Positions 43,231 through 49,772 of a stretch of 64,000 nt of DNA are shown here, one piece after another. This stretch comes from Rikenellaceae bacterium (GTDB lineage: Bacteria; Bacteroidota; Bacteroidia; Bacteroidales; Rikenellaceae). Location of the stretch: contig JAJQEF010000016.1 in NCBI GenBank assembly GCA_021201795.1, forward strand, positions 166,543 through 230,542. Direction: 5' to 3'. The stretch's first letter is position 1; every line of letters begins with the position of its first letter. Under the pieces are notes generated by a model that did no database searches, was not told the DNA's origin, and saw nothing but the letters and a program-made list of their open reading frames with translations. A program made the translations under genes and the position numbers.

Positions 43231-44055
43231 TTATATTACGGCTTTGCGAATACGTACTAGTTCTTCCAGTAAATTTTCCAGCATATCCAACCTGAGCATA
43301 TTTGCTCCGTCTGATTTTGCTTTACCCGGTTCGGGATGTGTTTCCAGAAAAATCCCGTCGGCTCCGACCGCTATTGCTGCTTTGCCTATTGTTTCGATCA
43401 ATTCGGGCCTGCCTCCGGTTACTCCGCTTCCCTGATTAGGTTGCTGAAGTGAATGTGTAATGTCTACGATAACAGGATATCCGTGTTCCTTCATTATCGG
43501 CACACTCCGGAAGTCTACTACTATATCGCCATATCCGAACATGGTTCCCCTGTCAGTAAGTATTATATTTTCATTACCTGATTCTGATATTTTCTGAGCA
43601 GCGAATTTCATTGATTCAGGGGACAGGAACTGTCCTTTTTTGATGTTTACGATTTTTCCTGTCTCTGCTGCTGCCTGTAATATATCCGACTGTCTGCACA
43701 GAAAGGCAGGTATTTGTAAAACATCCACATATTTTGCCGCCACTTCTGCTTCGGATGCGCTGTGTATATCTGTGATTACCGGGACTGAGAATTTTTCTTT
43801 TATTTCCGCCAGTATCTCCAGTGCCTCTATATCTCCGATGCCGGTAAAAGAATCGGACTTCGACCTGTTTGCTTTTCTGTAAGAGCCTTTGAAAATATAA
43901 GGAATGTTCAGTCTGTCCGTGATTTCGCAAACCGTCTCAGCTATTTGCATAGCGTTGGCTCTGCTCTCTATGATACACGGGCCGGCGATCAGGAAGAACA
44001 TATTGTTCTCAGTGTGCCTTACCCAAGGCAGGTTTTTTATTATGTCAGTTTTCAT
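43231..44055 (-). CDS. kdsA: 3-deoxy-8-phosphooctulonate synthase (KDO 8-P synthase)
   Basis: 274 aa; condenses phosphoenolpyruvate and arabinose 5-phosphate to KDO 8-phosphate for the LPS inner core. LIAGPCIIESRANAM, YIFKGSYRKANRSK, PVITDIHSASEA and DITHSLQQPNQGSGVTGGRPE are diagnostic. Last gene of the minus-strand operon, 6 nt behind rarA. Confidence 0.96.
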   Translation of the reverse strand: MKTDIIKNLPWVRHTENNMFFLIAGPCIIESRANAMQIAETVCEITDRLNIPYIFKGSYRKANRSKSDSFTGIGDIEALEILAEIKEKFSVPVITDIHSASEAEVAAKYVDVLQIPAFLCRQSDILQAAAETGKIVNIKKGQFLSPESMKFAAQKISESGNENIILTDRGTMFGYGDIVVDFRSVPIMKEHGYPVIVDITHSLQQPNQGSGVTGGRPELIETIGKAAIAVGADGIFLETHPEPGKAKSDGANMLRLDMLENLLEELVRIRKAVI

Positions 44056-44061
44056 CTTTTA

Positions 44062-45336
44062 TTATTTTTCTCTGTTCCAAAGTTTATTCATTCTAGTCTC
44101 GGTTTCCCTTTCCCGCGGATTATCCGAAGGTTTATATAGACGCGTGCCTTCCAGTCCTTCAGGGAAAAACTCCTGAATCACGAAGTTATTTTCAAAATCA
44201 TGTGCGTATTTGTAACCTTCTCCATAACCGATATTTTTCATGAGTTTTGTAGGGGAGTTACGCAGGTGCAGCGGGACAGGGCGGTTAGTCGTATCTTTGT
44301 TAACCATAGACATGGCGCGGTCTATCGCCATATATGCAGAGTTGCTTTTAGGGCTCGTCGCAAGGTAAATAGTAGCTTCTGCAAGAGGTATGCGTGCTTC
44401 CGGCATACCGATTTTGTGAACGGTGTCGAAACAAGCGTTGGCAAGCAGAAGACCGTTGGGATTGGCCAGCCCGATGTCCTCGGCTGCGAGGATAACAAGT
44501 CGCCGTGCGATAAATTTCGGATACTCTCCGCCGGCAAGCATTCGCGCCAGATAGTATACTGCTGCATCCGGATTACTGCCTCTTACGGATTTTATGAAAG
44601 CGGAAATTACATCGTAGTGCTGTTCGCCGTTTTTATCGTATAGCGCAATGTTCTGCTGCAATGCATCGGTTATATTTTTATCTGTAATTACGACCTGACC
44701 CTCTGCAGAATTGGCCAGTATGTCCAATATATTTAATAATTTACTGGCATCCCCCCCCGAAAAGGTGAACAATGCTTCGGTTTCTTTAATTTTTACCCCG
44801 CGTTCTTTTAATACTATATCGCTTCCGACAGCTCTGTTCAATAGTTTGTGGAGATCCTTGTCTTCCAGATTTTTAAGAACATATACCTGGCATCTGGATA
44901 AAAGAGGGGATATGACCTCGAACGACGGATTCTCAGTAGTAGCTCCGATCAGAGTGATTATTCCATGTTCGACAGCTCCTAAAAGAGAGTCTTGCTGTGA
45001 TTTGTTAAATCTATGTATCTCGTCTATAAAAAGGAACGGTGCCGGAGTATTGAAAAATTTCTGTCCTTTGGCGTTCTCGATCACTTCCCGTACATCTTTA
45101 ACTCCGGAATTTATTGCGCTTAATGTGAAGAATTTCCTGTTCAACGATGTCGCTACAATCCTCGCAAGAGTTGTTTTACCGACTCCAGGAGGTCCCCAGA
45201 GTATGAATGAAGGTACATTTCCGGAATCGATGAATTTGCGGAAGACACCGTTTTTACCTACGAGGTGTTCCTGTCCGATATAATCGTCCAGAGTGTTTGG
45301 ACGAAGCCTTTCGGCTAATGGTATATTGGTGTTCAT
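44062..45336 (-). CDS. rarA: Replication-associated recombination protein A (RarA/MgsA) AAA ATPase
   Basis: 424 aa. PLAERLRPNTLDDYIGQEHLVG opens the protein. ILWGPPGVGKTTLARIVA is Walker A and FLFIDEIHRFNKSQQDSLLGAVE is Walker B plus the sensor region. The C-terminal tetramerisation domain contains RRLVILAAEDIGLANPNGLLLA. It acts at stalled replication forks. It sits 6 nt from both neighbours in the operon. Confidence 0.95.
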   Translation of the reverse strand: MNTNIPLAERLRPNTLDDYIGQEHLVGKNGVFRKFIDSGNVPSFILWGPPGVGKTTLARIVATSLNRKFFTLSAINSGVKDVREVIENAKGQKFFNTPAPFLFIDEIHRFNKSQQDSLLGAVEHGIITLIGATTENPSFEVISPLLSRCQVYVLKNLEDKDLHKLLNRAVGSDIVLKERGVKIKETEALFTFSGGDASKLLNILDILANSAEGQVVITDKNITDALQQNIALYDKNGEQHYDVISAFIKSVRGSNPDAAVYYLARMLAGGEYPKFIARRLVILAAEDIGLANPNGLLLANACFDTVHKIGMPEARIPLAEATIYLATSPKSNSAYMAIDRAMSMVNKDTTNRPVPLHLRNSPTKLMKNIGYGEGYKYAHDFENNFVIQEFFPEGLEGTRLYKPSDNPRERETETRMNKLWNREK

Positions 45337-45342
45337 TGTGGT

Positions 45343-46845
45343 TTATTCGATTGCTGTTACGGATGCCGTTATGAGCGGAATCGTATTAAGAACTCCGGCA
45401 AACTCCTGTGCCGTAAGTCTGTTGGAAAAAATCCCTATAAAATATTTTCCGTTCACCAGAGTAATTTCTTTATCGTGAGCATACCTGTCGATATAACTAC
45501 GGACCGCGTCGTTAAGTTTACCGATACCTTCTATTTCAACGTTAAATGCACCTGCATTATTTTCAATATCGGAACCCAGATTTTTGAAATCTCCGTTATC
45601 CCACATTACTACTTCCGGTTTGCGGAAACCGTGTTCATTTTTAAGCTTCACAGCATCTGCGTAAGCCTCGGTCAATGTTTTGTACAAACCGATGAAATAT
45701 CTGTATCGACCCTGGTTACGGTCGTAATGAACTGGAACTATATTTTTAAAAGTGGAAACAGCAGGCTTATTTGCGAATGTGCCTACCGTGATGCTGTAAA
45801 ATTTTCCTTTTTCAGGCACATTGATCTCCGGAATAGGATTCTGATTATTGTACGGACTGCTCTGAACTTTGGAAATGCCGGCAAAATCGATAAAATCCCT
45901 TTCGGCAAGTATTATGTTTTGTTTAATAAAATCACTGTCGTCGAATCCGGATATGGCTTGGGTCAGAGAATCAAGGGCGCTGGCTAAATTCAGCGTCCGG
46001 GCAAGGAGTATTTCATATTCCGATATCAGTCTGTATTGGGACGGAAATTCCGCAAAGGTCTCGGATATCATTGTTTTGAGCTGTTCGGCGGGAATTTTTT
46101 CCGCTTTGTTCCTGCGGTTAATTTCATTGATGTCGGCCAGTTTGTTCAGTTTATCCAGAAGAAAGGTATAAACCAGCGTTTTGGTATTGAAGATCATCTC
46201 CCAGTTTTTGTTGAAATCTTCCTCGCATTCGGTAATTCCTGAATACAATCCACGGTAAACATTGTACAAAGAATCCGAAGTATACTGATCCTCTGCCGAC
46301 TTATACAGGATTGCTGTTTCCTCCATATTCGTGTATAATGAAATGAATTCTTCCGACAATCCGGATATGTATTTTTCATTATCGAATACTTCCAGCAGAA
46401 GCTCGTAATCCTCTTTATTGAGATTATTTTTTATGTAGGAATTATACGGAAGAAAACGATTGTCCGTCCCGTTTATAGGAGATGGGCTGTCAGGCAGTTC
46501 ATTTTCTAACGAATTGATAAGATACTCTTGTTCTATTGTAGTGGTCTTGGATACGACTATACCAAGGTTGTTGCGGATGTCGAACAGATCCGCCTCAAGA
46601 CTTAGTATCTCTGCACTCCTCATCGCACGATCGGACGTATCTCTCATGAATGCCGTTCTTTTTTCATCGAGAAGATTTAACAGCGAGTCTTCTTTATTTT
46701 TCAGAACAGTCTCTTCTAAAAGAAGTTCCATGTATACGGAATCATTCTCAAGTCCTGAAATACGAGGTGTGATACCTATATTAGATGACCCTATAAGGGT
46801 ACTCAGTATTACAACGCTAAAAACTGATATATAATATTTTTTCAT
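45343..46845 (-). CDS. Secreted protein with tandem SPOR-like C-terminal repeats
   Basis: 500 aa. An N-terminal signal (YYISVFSVVILSTLIGSS) leads to about 300 residues of charged helical, probably coiled-coil sequence with no family I recognise. The C terminus has one SPOR-like unit (GKFYSITVGTFANKPAVSTFKNIVPVHYDRNQGRYRYFIGLYKTLTEAYADAVKLK) and a shorter second one (LVNGKYFIGIFSNRLTAQEFAGVLN). SPOR domains bind denuded septal peptidoglycan, so a periplasmic cell-wall role is inferred. It lies between trkH and rarA with 6-nt gaps on both sides. Confidence 0.72.
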   Translation of the reverse strand: MKKYYISVFSVVILSTLIGSSNIGITPRISGLENDSVYMELLLEETVLKNKEDSLLNLLDEKRTAFMRDTSDRAMRSAEILSLEADLFDIRNNLGIVVSKTTTIEQEYLINSLENELPDSPSPINGTDNRFLPYNSYIKNNLNKEDYELLLEVFDNEKYISGLSEEFISLYTNMEETAILYKSAEDQYTSDSLYNVYRGLYSGITECEEDFNKNWEMIFNTKTLVYTFLLDKLNKLADINEINRRNKAEKIPAEQLKTMISETFAEFPSQYRLISEYEILLARTLNLASALDSLTQAISGFDDSDFIKQNIILAERDFIDFAGISKVQSSPYNNQNPIPEINVPEKGKFYSITVGTFANKPAVSTFKNIVPVHYDRNQGRYRYFIGLYKTLTEAYADAVKLKNEHGFRKPEVVMWDNGDFKNLGSDIENNAGAFNVEIEGIGKLNDAVRSYIDRYAHDKEITLVNGKYFIGIFSNRLTAQEFAGVLNTIPLITASVTAIE

Positions 46846-46851
46846 AGATAT

Positions 46852-48297
46852 CTATCTCCAAATCCTGATCATCGCTATCAATAATAAACCGAATATTTCC
46901 AGACGGCCGATTAACATAAGCAAAGTACATATAATTTTTACATAATCGGGAATAACCGAATAATTGCTCAAAGAAGACACTGCACCGAAGCCGGGGCCCA
47001 CATTCCCCATTGAAGCAAATGCCGCGCTGAAACTCGTCATAAGATCCAGTCCTGAAATCGATATCAGCAGCGTTCCCAAAAGTACGAATAAAATATAAAT
47101 AACGATAAACATATTTACCAGACTTAACGTATTATCTTCGATAATTGTTTTATCCATTTTAACCCTTATTATGGCGTTAGGGTGCTGTAATTGCTTCACC
47201 CTCGCAATAACCGATTTGTAGGAAAGAAGGATTCGGTCGGCTTTAAGTCCTCCCGTAGTAGAGCCTGAACAGGCGCTGGTAAAGGAGAAATATATGAGGA
47301 TTACTAGCGCGAATGGTGGCCATATGTTGGTATCGGTGGTTGCAAAACCTGTAGTGGTACATATTGTCGCAGCCTGGAAATATGCGTATCTCGCAGCTTC
47401 CCCTAAAGAATTGTAAGTGTCCGAAAACCATAGGCTTCCGGTAATCAACACACCTCCGATAATAAGACTCCATATATAAAACATGGTCACTTCCGAGCGA
47501 AAGATATTGTTCTTCTTTCCTGTAAGCGTGGCGTATAATACCCCGAAATGTATCCCCGCTATTACGGTAAAGAGTGTAATGATTATTTCTACCCATTTAT
47601 TACTGAAGTATGAAATGCTGAGCGACCTTGTACTGAACCCTCCTGTCGCCACGGTAGAGAATGCGTGGTTTATCGAATCGAACCAGTCCATACCTGCGAT
47701 TCTCAGAAAAATCGATGCCGTAAAGGTTAGTCCTATATAAACAAAAAGTAAGATCTTTACGATTTTCTGGGTTTTATATTTGAAATTGTCTTTTGCGAGA
47801 GCAGACATCTGTATATTGGATAAGGTCATCTTTACACGACCGAGGGACGGAATTGCAACCAGTACAAACATCATTACCCCTATACCGCCCAACCAGTGGG
47901 TCGACGATCTCCAGAATAATAGACTTTTGGGAACGGCTTCGATATCGTTCAGTATGGTGCTTCCCGTGGTTGTAAATCCCGATACGCTTTCGAACCAGGC
48001 GTTTACAACGGTAAATTCACCGCCCCACAACAAATAGGGGAAGGTTCCCACTACACAGGAAATTACCCATGAACCTACGACTATTATGTATGCTTCCTTA
48101 CTGTTTATATTATTATCTGCGTCGACGAATATTAGCGGGAAGCATCCCAGTGCAACGGTAAGGATTGCACTCATAATAAGGGGATATAAACCGGTATCGA
48201 TGCCGTAGTAAACCGCAATAAAGGCGGACAATAACATGAATAAGGCATTGATAACAAGCACAAGTCCAATATATCTCGTAATTATATTGAATCTCAT
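46852..48297 (-). CDS. trkH: TrkH-type potassium uptake protein
   Basis: 481 aa with about ten TM helices and selectivity-filter-like loops in each repeat (SVSGFTTTGSTIL; FSTVATGGFSTRS; TICTTTGFATTD; FASMGNVGPGFG). It imports K+, usually gated by the cytoplasmic NAD-binding protein TrkA. No trkA is in the window; instead the gene overlaps an upstream HAMP-domain gene by one base, which is unusual. Confidence 0.92.
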   Translation of the reverse strand: MRFNIITRYIGLVLVINALFMLLSAFIAVYYGIDTGLYPLIMSAILTVALGCFPLIFVDADNNINSKEAYIIVVGSWVISCVVGTFPYLLWGGEFTVVNAWFESVSGFTTTGSTILNDIEAVPKSLLFWRSSTHWLGGIGVMMFVLVAIPSLGRVKMTLSNIQMSALAKDNFKYKTQKIVKILLFVYIGLTFTASIFLRIAGMDWFDSINHAFSTVATGGFSTRSLSISYFSNKWVEIIITLFTVIAGIHFGVLYATLTGKKNNIFRSEVTMFYIWSLIIGGVLITGSLWFSDTYNSLGEAARYAYFQAATICTTTGFATTDTNIWPPFALVILIYFSFTSACSGSTTGGLKADRILLSYKSVIARVKQLQHPNAIIRVKMDKTIIEDNTLSLVNMFIVIYILFVLLGTLLISISGLDLMTSFSAAFASMGNVGPGFGAVSSLSNYSVIPDYVKIICTLLMLIGRLEIFGLLLIAMIRIWR

Positions 48298-49055
48298 CAG
48301 TTGACTTTTTTTGTTGAAGAGATAAGTTCCTCGATGTATGTACGAAGGTCTTTTATCTCATCCGTTCCTTCTACTTTGGGTTTGAACGGAACCCTTTGTT
48401 TGATATATGCTTCCAGGCTCCGGGTCATTTTGAGAACCGGTTTTATATAATAAAGATCGATCAATCCGAAGAATACGACTATTATTATAATAGCTATACC
48501 TAAAGTGATGATTCCGGGCATGATCGCACGGTAGGCATTATTTCTTAAGATTCTGGCAGTGTTGTCTACTGAATTGTTTGTCGACAGGATAAGATTTTTT
48601 ATGGAAATATTAAGATCATAATAAGAAGATCTGTATATTTCTTCTATCCACTCTATATTGGAGTAGACGGTGTCGGTAATGTCGTTTGCTACGATATCAT
48701 AGCTGTTTTTGGACGCGATAACCCTGTCTGTGCCCTCGTTGGTTTCAAATAGTTCCGCGGCTGCCGTGAATATGGAATCGAAATGATTCTTTCTGGATTC
48801 CAATAAGGAATCGGAGAATTCCCGACCCTCCATAATGACTTGTAATATAGAATCGTACAACTTTACGGATTGTACCATTTTATCGGACATTTCCATTTCC
48901 TGCCTGCTTTTTTCGAGTATTATCCTTGTCGAGGCGTTAAGTCGTCTTAGTTCGAAAAAAGATATTAGCCCGGAGAAAAATAATAAACAGCCCAGAACGA
49001 AAAATCCGTAAAGGATCTTATTCCTGATTCCGCTGACAGATTTTATTTGTTTCAT
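48297..49055 (-). CDS. Two-TM sensor-like protein ending in a HAMP domain, no output domain
   Basis: 252 aa: TM1 at about 14-35 (ILYGFFVLGCLLFFSGLISFF), an extracytoplasmic helical region of about 140 residues resembling four-helix-bundle chemoreceptor sensors (ASTRIILEKSRQEMEMSDKMVQSV), TM2 at about 178-202 (MPGIITLGIAIIIIVVFFGLIDLYYI), then a HAMP-like segment (KPVLKMTRSLEAYIKQRVPFKPKVEGTDEIKDLRTYIEELI). The protein ends there, without a kinase, cyclase or MCP tail. It overlaps trkH by one base, suggesting it acts on the channel directly; this is inference. Confidence 0.75.
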   Translation of the reverse strand: MKQIKSVSGIRNKILYGFFVLGCLLFFSGLISFFELRRLNASTRIILEKSRQEMEMSDKMVQSVKLYDSILQVIMEGREFSDSLLESRKNHFDSIFTAAAELFETNEGTDRVIASKNSYDIVANDITDTVYSNIEWIEEIYRSSYYDLNISIKNLILSTNNSVDNTARILRNNAYRAIMPGIITLGIAIIIIVVFFGLIDLYYIKPVLKMTRSLEAYIKQRVPFKPKVEGTDEIKDLRTYIEELISSTKKVN

Positions 49056-49074: not shown

Positions 49075-49082
49075 CAAAGATA
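49075..49082 (-). promoter_or_regulatory. -7 element of the HAMP-trkH-SPOR-rarA-kdsA operon
   Basis: Minus-strand TATCTTTG exactly fits TAnnTTTG, 19 nt from the start of the first gene. No -33 TTTG is at 19-21 nt. Confidence 0.5.
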
Positions 49083-49193: not shown

Positions 49194-49772
49194 ATGAAAA
49201 AGTTATTTGTGCTCGTATTAGTATGCCTTGTAGTTTCCGGAGTTTCCGCACAGCCGTTAAAGATCGGAGTGAAGGGCGGATTGACATTTCTTTCCACTGA
49301 TGCTGTAAGCAAAATAAGTACCGATAATAGAATCAAATCGAAGGATGTGGGATTTACTGTAGGTGTAGTTTCGCGTTTTACTATTCCTGTTATAGGCATT
49401 TACGCCCAGCCGGAGTTGGTTTACAATTATGCGAAATACAATGTATACAGAATGGATGATGCAAGGAAATTAACTTACAACAACCTCGAACTTCCTGTGT
49501 TGTTCGGTCTGAACCTGCTTTTTATCAGGATTAACGCAGGACCGGTATTCAACCTGAAAACATTCGACGGAAAAGATAATTATTTCCATGTCTACCGTCC
49601 TAACGTAGGTTATATTGCAGGTCTCGGATTGTCTCTGGGAAGATTTGATTTCGATGTCCGCTGGCAGGGATATTTTTCTAAGGAGAATAGAAAATTCGAC
49701 CTGAACTATGTCAACCAGGGCATTAAAGTAAACGACAAGTTCATTACTACTTCATTCACTTACTTTTTTTAA
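49194..49772 (+). CDS. Outer-membrane beta-barrel protein (porin/PorT-like family)
   Basis: 192 aa. The signal peptide (MKKLFVLVLVCLVVSGVSAQP) is followed by alternating strands typical of the small OMP_b-brl barrels of Bacteroidota (LKIGVKGGLTFLSTD, GFTVGVVSRFTIPVIGIYAQPELVYNY, GYIAGLGLSLGRFDFDVRWQGYF), ending in the aromatic TTSFTYFF. Function unknown; several relatives take part in secretion or adhesion. First gene of the operon, overlapping phoH by one base. Confidence 0.85.
   Translation: MKKLFVLVLVCLVVSGVSAQPLKIGVKGGLTFLSTDAVSKISTDNRIKSKDVGFTVGVVSRFTIPVIGIYAQPELVYNYAKYNVYRMDDARKLTYNNLELPVLFGLNLLFIRINAGPVFNLKTFDGKDNYFHVYRPNVGYIAGLGLSLGRFDFDVRWQGYFSKENRKFDLNYVNQGIKVNDKFITTSFTYFF

Follow-up and report, generated by a model that had tools for sequence, protein, structure and literature searches.

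The window analyzed here, a 64,000-nucleotide stretch of a Rikenellaceae contig, carries on its minus strand, to which all features located below belong unless described as divergent, two genes that share a nucleotide. The upstream gene (48297..49055) encodes a sensor protein of 252 aa which, from its open reading frame, the Pfam matches of its homologs and an AlphaFold2 model, comprises a first transmembrane helix (TM1), a periplasmic four-helix bundle, a second transmembrane helix (TM2) and a HAMP domain, followed by the stop codon. The downstream gene (46852..48297) is trkH, the single TrkH gene found by a search of this genome. Its 481-aa product matches PF02386 at E = 2.3e-58, above the family cut-off, aligns end to end with Vibrio TrkH (4J9U), and falls within a monophyletic group that we call class 1, or HAMP-linked, in which the four glycine motifs of the pore-loop filter (TTTG112, G219-G220, G317, and G434) are invariant. 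The junction reads AAC TGATG AGA, and so the TGA of the sensor gene (48299-48297) and the ATG of trkH (48297-48295) have one A in common; the sequence at 48295..48299 thus bears out the shared base claimed in the earlier note, and overlapping or nearly touching junctions are found in most homologous pairs.

The pair opens a one-strand run (43231-49055) that continues with genes for a SPOR-domain protein, RarA, and KdsA, these last three with gaps of about 6 nt. The SPOR-domain protein (45343..46845; 500 aa; PF05036) follows trkH after a 6-nt gap and, by tblastn, is kept in that position in other Rikenellaceae (L010, L013, and L014); a link to the cell envelope or to division is possible. The rarA/mgsA AAA+ ATPase gene (44062..45336), recognized by MgsA_C and again separated by 6 nt from the SPOR gene, is likely only co-transcribed with the pair. 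An apparent rarA, identified by sequence, also stands beside a regulator-kinase-TrkH operon in another genome (L257, genome G147). On the other side of the pair, a divergent gene whose product resembles an outer-membrane beta-barrel protein (49194-49772; weak TDE1717-family match) is separated from the HAMP gene by a 138-nt intergenic region. About 20 nt upstream of the start of the HAMP gene, TATCTTTG (49075..49082) matches the Bacteroidota -7 box TAnnTTTG; since matches to this box occur across the window at chance level, its position is the sole support for it.

The 252-aa protein itself gives only a sub-threshold Pfam match to 4HB_MCP_1, and no match to HAMP (PF00672) even at E = 1. Among its homologs in the first alignment, 4HB_MCP_1 is found in 25/25 (best 5e-11) and PF00672 in 14/25 (best 4.7e-7). 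An AlphaFold2 model built with 110 homologs (pLDDT 90.8) places helices at residues 9-75, 82-102, 107-129, 134-220, and 233-251, which correspond to TM1, the four-helix bundle, TM2, the first HAMP helix (AS1), the linker, and the second HAMP helix (AS2). The last two helices form a HAMP-like pair, which is the only cytosolic domain, and the chain ends one residue past AS2; the nearest folds are sensor-HAMP fragments of NarQ and chemoreceptors. Taken together, the modeled architecture and the Pfam matches of the homologs mean that the earlier description, a sensor, a TM helix, and a HAMP domain that then stops, is correct. The accompanying claim that the protein has no enzymatic output holds as well, as the stop codon directly follows AS2, trkH comes next, and neither the open reading frame nor Pfam reveals a HisKA or HATPase domain after HAMP in this sensor.

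Conservation and the model helices delimit this HAMP domain to residues about 204-251 (48303..48446), where AS1, P206, the linker, D232-E233, and AS2 form the last element of the protein. P206, D232-E233, and L237 are conserved in the short proteins and in related kinases alike. Other positions set the TrkH-linked sensors apart from the kinases, among them R176, P180, W136, and the core of AS2. The first two bound an RAIMP motif at the outer end of TM2 (R176-P180; 48516..48530) that is confined to TrkH-linked short proteins and missing in the kinases related to them: R176 is conserved at 87% and P180 at 88% in 150 short proteins, with overlaps of 0.13 and 0.01, respectively, with the kinases. 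On this contrast in conservation, RAIMP is a candidate contact with TrkH.

How regularly such a sensor accompanies TrkH was surveyed across the phylum Bacteroidota. A profile search of 393 Bacteroidales genomes returned 52 short genes in 51 genomes at bits >186; below a wide score gap (bits <113) came ~615-aa kinases and a few other short proteins. A TrkH profile made from the neighboring genes recovered 50 full class-1 genes scoring 604-784 bits, the next full genes reaching at most 475, and all 50 fall within the 51 genomes that carry a short gene. The same profile gave two class-1 fragments that are broken or at contig edges (G563 and G126); the short-gene genomes without a full class-1 TrkH, G563 and G707, both have a fragmented TrkH. 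In the fetched loci, some of which overlap and which contain 150 distinct full pairs, trkH lies directly downstream in 179/183 short-gene records, 54 of these junctions being overlaps and most of the others within 40 nt. Of the four remaining records, two break off where the contig ends and two are true exceptions, with a HAMP gene that has no trkH behind it (L189 in G812, an 84% complete MAG, and L194 in G783, 65%); in L194 a folC-like gene occupies that place. For the kinases, the corresponding count of trkH genes downstream in the first locus set is 0/22. Homologs of the sensor are therefore found mostly beside trkH, the opposite of mainly away from it.

Within the Rikenellaceae, the sensor gene is present in 106/120 genomes, in 69/72 of the good ones, and in 22/22 genera, and a second class of the phylum also carries it, beside trkH wherever the contig reaches. 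In the sensor and TrkH trees, both members of the pair are monophyletic, their distances correlate (r = 0.85), and in a genome with two pairs each pair falls in one clade as a unit; dN/dS between close pairs is 0.03-0.22. No natural HAMP-TrkH fusion occurs among the open frames of the high-scoring short genes, all of which are <400 aa. Judged by these comparisons of sequence, the association of sensor and TrkH is not a matter of chance: it is specific and old, and purifying selection acts on it. The pairing of the genes points to an extra regulatory subunit of the Trk system in many gut Bacteroidota.

We propose that the HAMP protein is a dedicated membrane sensor, or accessory subunit, of the TrkH-TrkA channel, with which it would form a physical complex, and on balance we consider this probable. 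The sensor would be homodimeric, as NarQ, chemoreceptors, and Af1503 suggest by analogy, and in a presumed complex it would most likely be placed beside the two-fold TrkH dimer. The periplasmic four-helix bundle would read an external condition, for which ionic strength, K+, or osmotic state are guesses, and the TM2-HAMP coiled coil would bias the open probability of TrkH, the direction of this regulation being itself presumptive. Such an effect would add to the gating that nucleotides exert through a TrkA ring, which is encoded elsewhere in the genome. Whether HAMP relays what the periplasmic domain senses by acting directly on the TrkH dimer or the TrkA ring is a narrower matter; we consider such direct action possible, direct gating of TrkH by the HAMP helices included, but less likely than not.

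A candidate site for the sensor on TrkH is the loop W91-GGEF-95 (48013..48027), which precedes pore helix 1, is conserved in class 1 only, and would be periplasmic by alignment to VpTrkH; W91, G93, E94, and F95 are among the residues that separate class-1 from class-2 TrkH. This loop and the RAIMP motif of TM2 are both predicted, from their sequences, to lie at the periplasmic border of the membrane, and these candidate contact patches are for that reason the first places in which to seek contact. Mean-field coevolution analysis of 150 pairs (Neff 115, reduced alphabet) did not find inter-protein couplings to be enriched, as they make up 31 of the top 100, against the ~45% that the count of possible pairs would predict. 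An AlphaFold2 model of a fused read-through of sensor and TrkH from an in-frame relative (L179, with TAG taken as Q; 42 rows) reached pLDDT 79 and pTM 0.72; at this pTM, the position of one protein relative to the other is not reliable.

An obligate subunit need not be a sensing one. The strict one-to-one pairing, the tight coupling of the genes, and the possession of motifs specific to TrkH-linked proteins, such as RAIMP at TM2, would also suit an assembly or stability factor that binds TrkH only for its folding, dimerization, or retention. We think this unlikely, as a chaperone would have no need of the complete sensor-TM-HAMP relay that is kept here, down to the HAMP proline and the DE motif, and other TrkH proteins work without a HAMP partner.

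The origin of the sensor raises another alternative. The short protein is homologous to the N-terminal half of a family of ~615-aa histidine kinases that is widespread in the phylum, and it may have arisen as the sensor half of this family, which is found also in K+-uptake operons, with loss of the kinase. Several gene orders could be intermediate arrangements. L257 (G147) has an NtrC-type regulator, a kinase, and TrkH; L234 and L239 (both in G713) and L260 (G145) have an NtrC-type regulator, a 4HB-HAMP-PAS-kinase, a short 4HB protein, and TrkH; L258 has TrkA, TrkH, and a kinase, with an NtrC-type fragment upstream; and in L261 kdpC is followed by a KdpD-N-like protein and then by a 4HB-HAMP-kinase. 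These orders, namely regulator-kinase-short protein-TrkH in the two copies of G713 and in G145, the kinase-TrkH operons L257 and L258, and the kinase behind kdpC in L261, would be expected if the class-1 sensor reported the state of TrkH to a kinase of the same family, for example through mixed dimers, and so affected transcription and not the channel. We nonetheless consider such an adaptor role rather unlikely. By tree, L234/L239 carry a class-2 TrkH, and the short proteins of the kinase operons belong to a lineage separate from the class-1 sensors; the short 4HB protein with a class-2-like TrkH in G713 and G145 is apparently an independent pairing. In the flanks that were examined, no kinase adjoins a class-1 pair, and the operon at the present locus goes on with SPOR, rarA, and kdsA.

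A dedicated subunit of the TrkH-TrkA channel presupposes TrkA, and here the earlier note is only partly right. Its statement that no trkA lies nearby stands for the ORFs around the pair, but the gene is not missing from the genome, as the search elsewhere that it had suggested finds one canonical trkA with two TrkA_N domains on another contig (G000:C20:67002-68336; 445-aa match). TrkA is likewise present in 56/57 genomes with a sensor-trkH pair, never adjoining the pair, and in 34/34 further Rikenellaceae, whereas class-2 TrkH has trkA directly upstream in 19/19 checkable loci. Where the HAMP-linked TrkH is the only class-1 or class-2 TrkH, TrkA is found in 26/26 genomes, as compared with 4/41 genomes that have neither class (Fisher p = 1e-14, uncorrected for phylogeny); the keeping of TrkA thus follows class-1 TrkH from one family to another.

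The residues known to contact TrkA in Vibrio TrkH are T175, R177, H377, and R379, with H377-P378-R379 forming the HN2 interface (PMC6987127). The equivalent of this last triad in the present TrkH is H372-P373-N374 (47176..47184), as located by class-1 conservation and the same work (PMC6987127). Across class 1, the H377 equivalent is kept in 80/83 proteins, P378 in 83/83, and R177 as R or K in 61/83, while the R379 position is mostly N, as it is in class 2. TrkA from the same genome keeps the equivalents of E293 and D44 (E290 and D43), the partners of H377 and R177, and has N283 in place of D286, alongside the change of R379 to N374 on its TrkH. The HN1 contact region differs between class 1 and class 2, with P176 changed to Y/F and T175 to K/R, and contact with TrkA may therefore be altered.

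Such a change at HN1, together with a trkA that never adjoins the HAMP-trkH pair as against its direct upstream position in class 2 (19/19), is what one might expect if the HAMP protein had replaced TrkA and gated class-1 TrkH alone. We judge replacement quite improbable in view of the retention of TrkA in 26/26 of the genomes that have class 1 only, versus 4/41 with neither class, of the conserved H-P of HN2, and of the E293/D44 equivalents in the TrkA of this genome. Given this retention and the partly kept contact residues, we regard TrkA, supplied in trans, as the probable partner of class-1 TrkH on the cytosolic side, and the HAMP protein as an addition to it. As for the sensor being a decaying histidine-kinase remnant that happens to lie upstream of trkH, its clear homology to the N-terminal half of the ~615-aa kinases is outweighed by 150 distinct full-length monophyletic pairs, dN/dS of 0.03-0.22, and a uniform end after HAMP, and we reject this reading as barely conceivable.

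Trk is the textbook K+-uptake system, and its gating is known mainly from the inside, through nucleotides acting via TrkA; HAMP domains normally relay to kinases, cyclases, or the tails of chemoreceptors. If the HAMP protein is indeed a sensory subunit of the channel, Trk carries an outward-facing sensor in a large group of gut bacteria and their relatives, and would thereby gain an outside-in input previously not known, through an extra subunit whose gene is near-universal in Rikenellaceae and extends to many further Bacteroidales and a second class of the phylum. HAMP-terminated "orphan" receptors would then have a concrete partner, and the role of a HAMP domain without an output would become testable.

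Among described systems, the Af1503-like receptors of Archaeoglobus fulgidus are similar in that the receptor is shortened, HAMP is the sole cytosolic part, translational coupling is seen, and transport genes are nearby, the operon including the MgtE-type Af1505 and the STAC protein Af1502 (PMC4834066). Here, however, the sensor bundle is of the MCP/NarQ kind, the partner is TrkH, in Bacteroidota and nearly strictly one-to-one, and no STAC-type gene occurs in the operon, the neighbors being trkH, SPOR, rarA, kdsA, and the divergent outer-membrane-type gene. TrkH-TrkA of Vibrio parahaemolyticus (4J9U/6V4J; PMC6987127) shares the TrkH family, the pore motifs, the H-P of HN2, and a TrkA in the genome, but at our locus trkA is unlinked, the HAMP gene is directly upstream of trkH, and the HN1 region is altered. 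The modules of NarQ, chemoreceptors, and KinB have the same predicted fold over the whole sensor; they continue into kinase or MCP signaling domains, whereas the present protein ends. KtrAB is a K+ channel of the TrkH superfamily with an RCK partner. A third TrkH-family group in our survey, with ~600-aa frames, is KtrB-like and has ktrA adjacent in the loci checked (L242 and L246), but no HAMP protein occurs in these loci. There is thus precedent both for HAMP-only receptors near transporters and for truncated sensors within K+ operons; the TrkH pairing is apparently undescribed, no account of a near-obligate HAMP-only TrkH partner having been found in the literature searched, which covered few subscription papers.

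In Deinococcus and cyanobacteria, kdp operons with a truncated KdpD (KdpD-N) offer another case of a kinase-less sensor half kept beside a K+-uptake system (PMC5716572), although KdpD-N belongs to a different protein family and goes with the Kdp ATPase instead of TrkH. In the present survey, a second K+ system likewise has a HAMP-only protein beside it: in L236, L237, and L238 (G712, G649, and G702), a kinase-less 4HB-HAMP protein of 297-299 aa is encoded directly downstream of kdpB-kdpC, and no ORF of at least 140 aa follows in the ~2.4 kb after it. By tree, the short proteins of the kinase operons and of the Kdp loci form lineages separate from the class-1 sensors, and kinase-less members of the family therefore appear to have become linked with K+ uptake on more than one occasion. 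The Kdp-linked short HAMP proteins look rare, as a profile of the three found only long-frame relatives, of 410-623 aa, in 168 genomes of the order.
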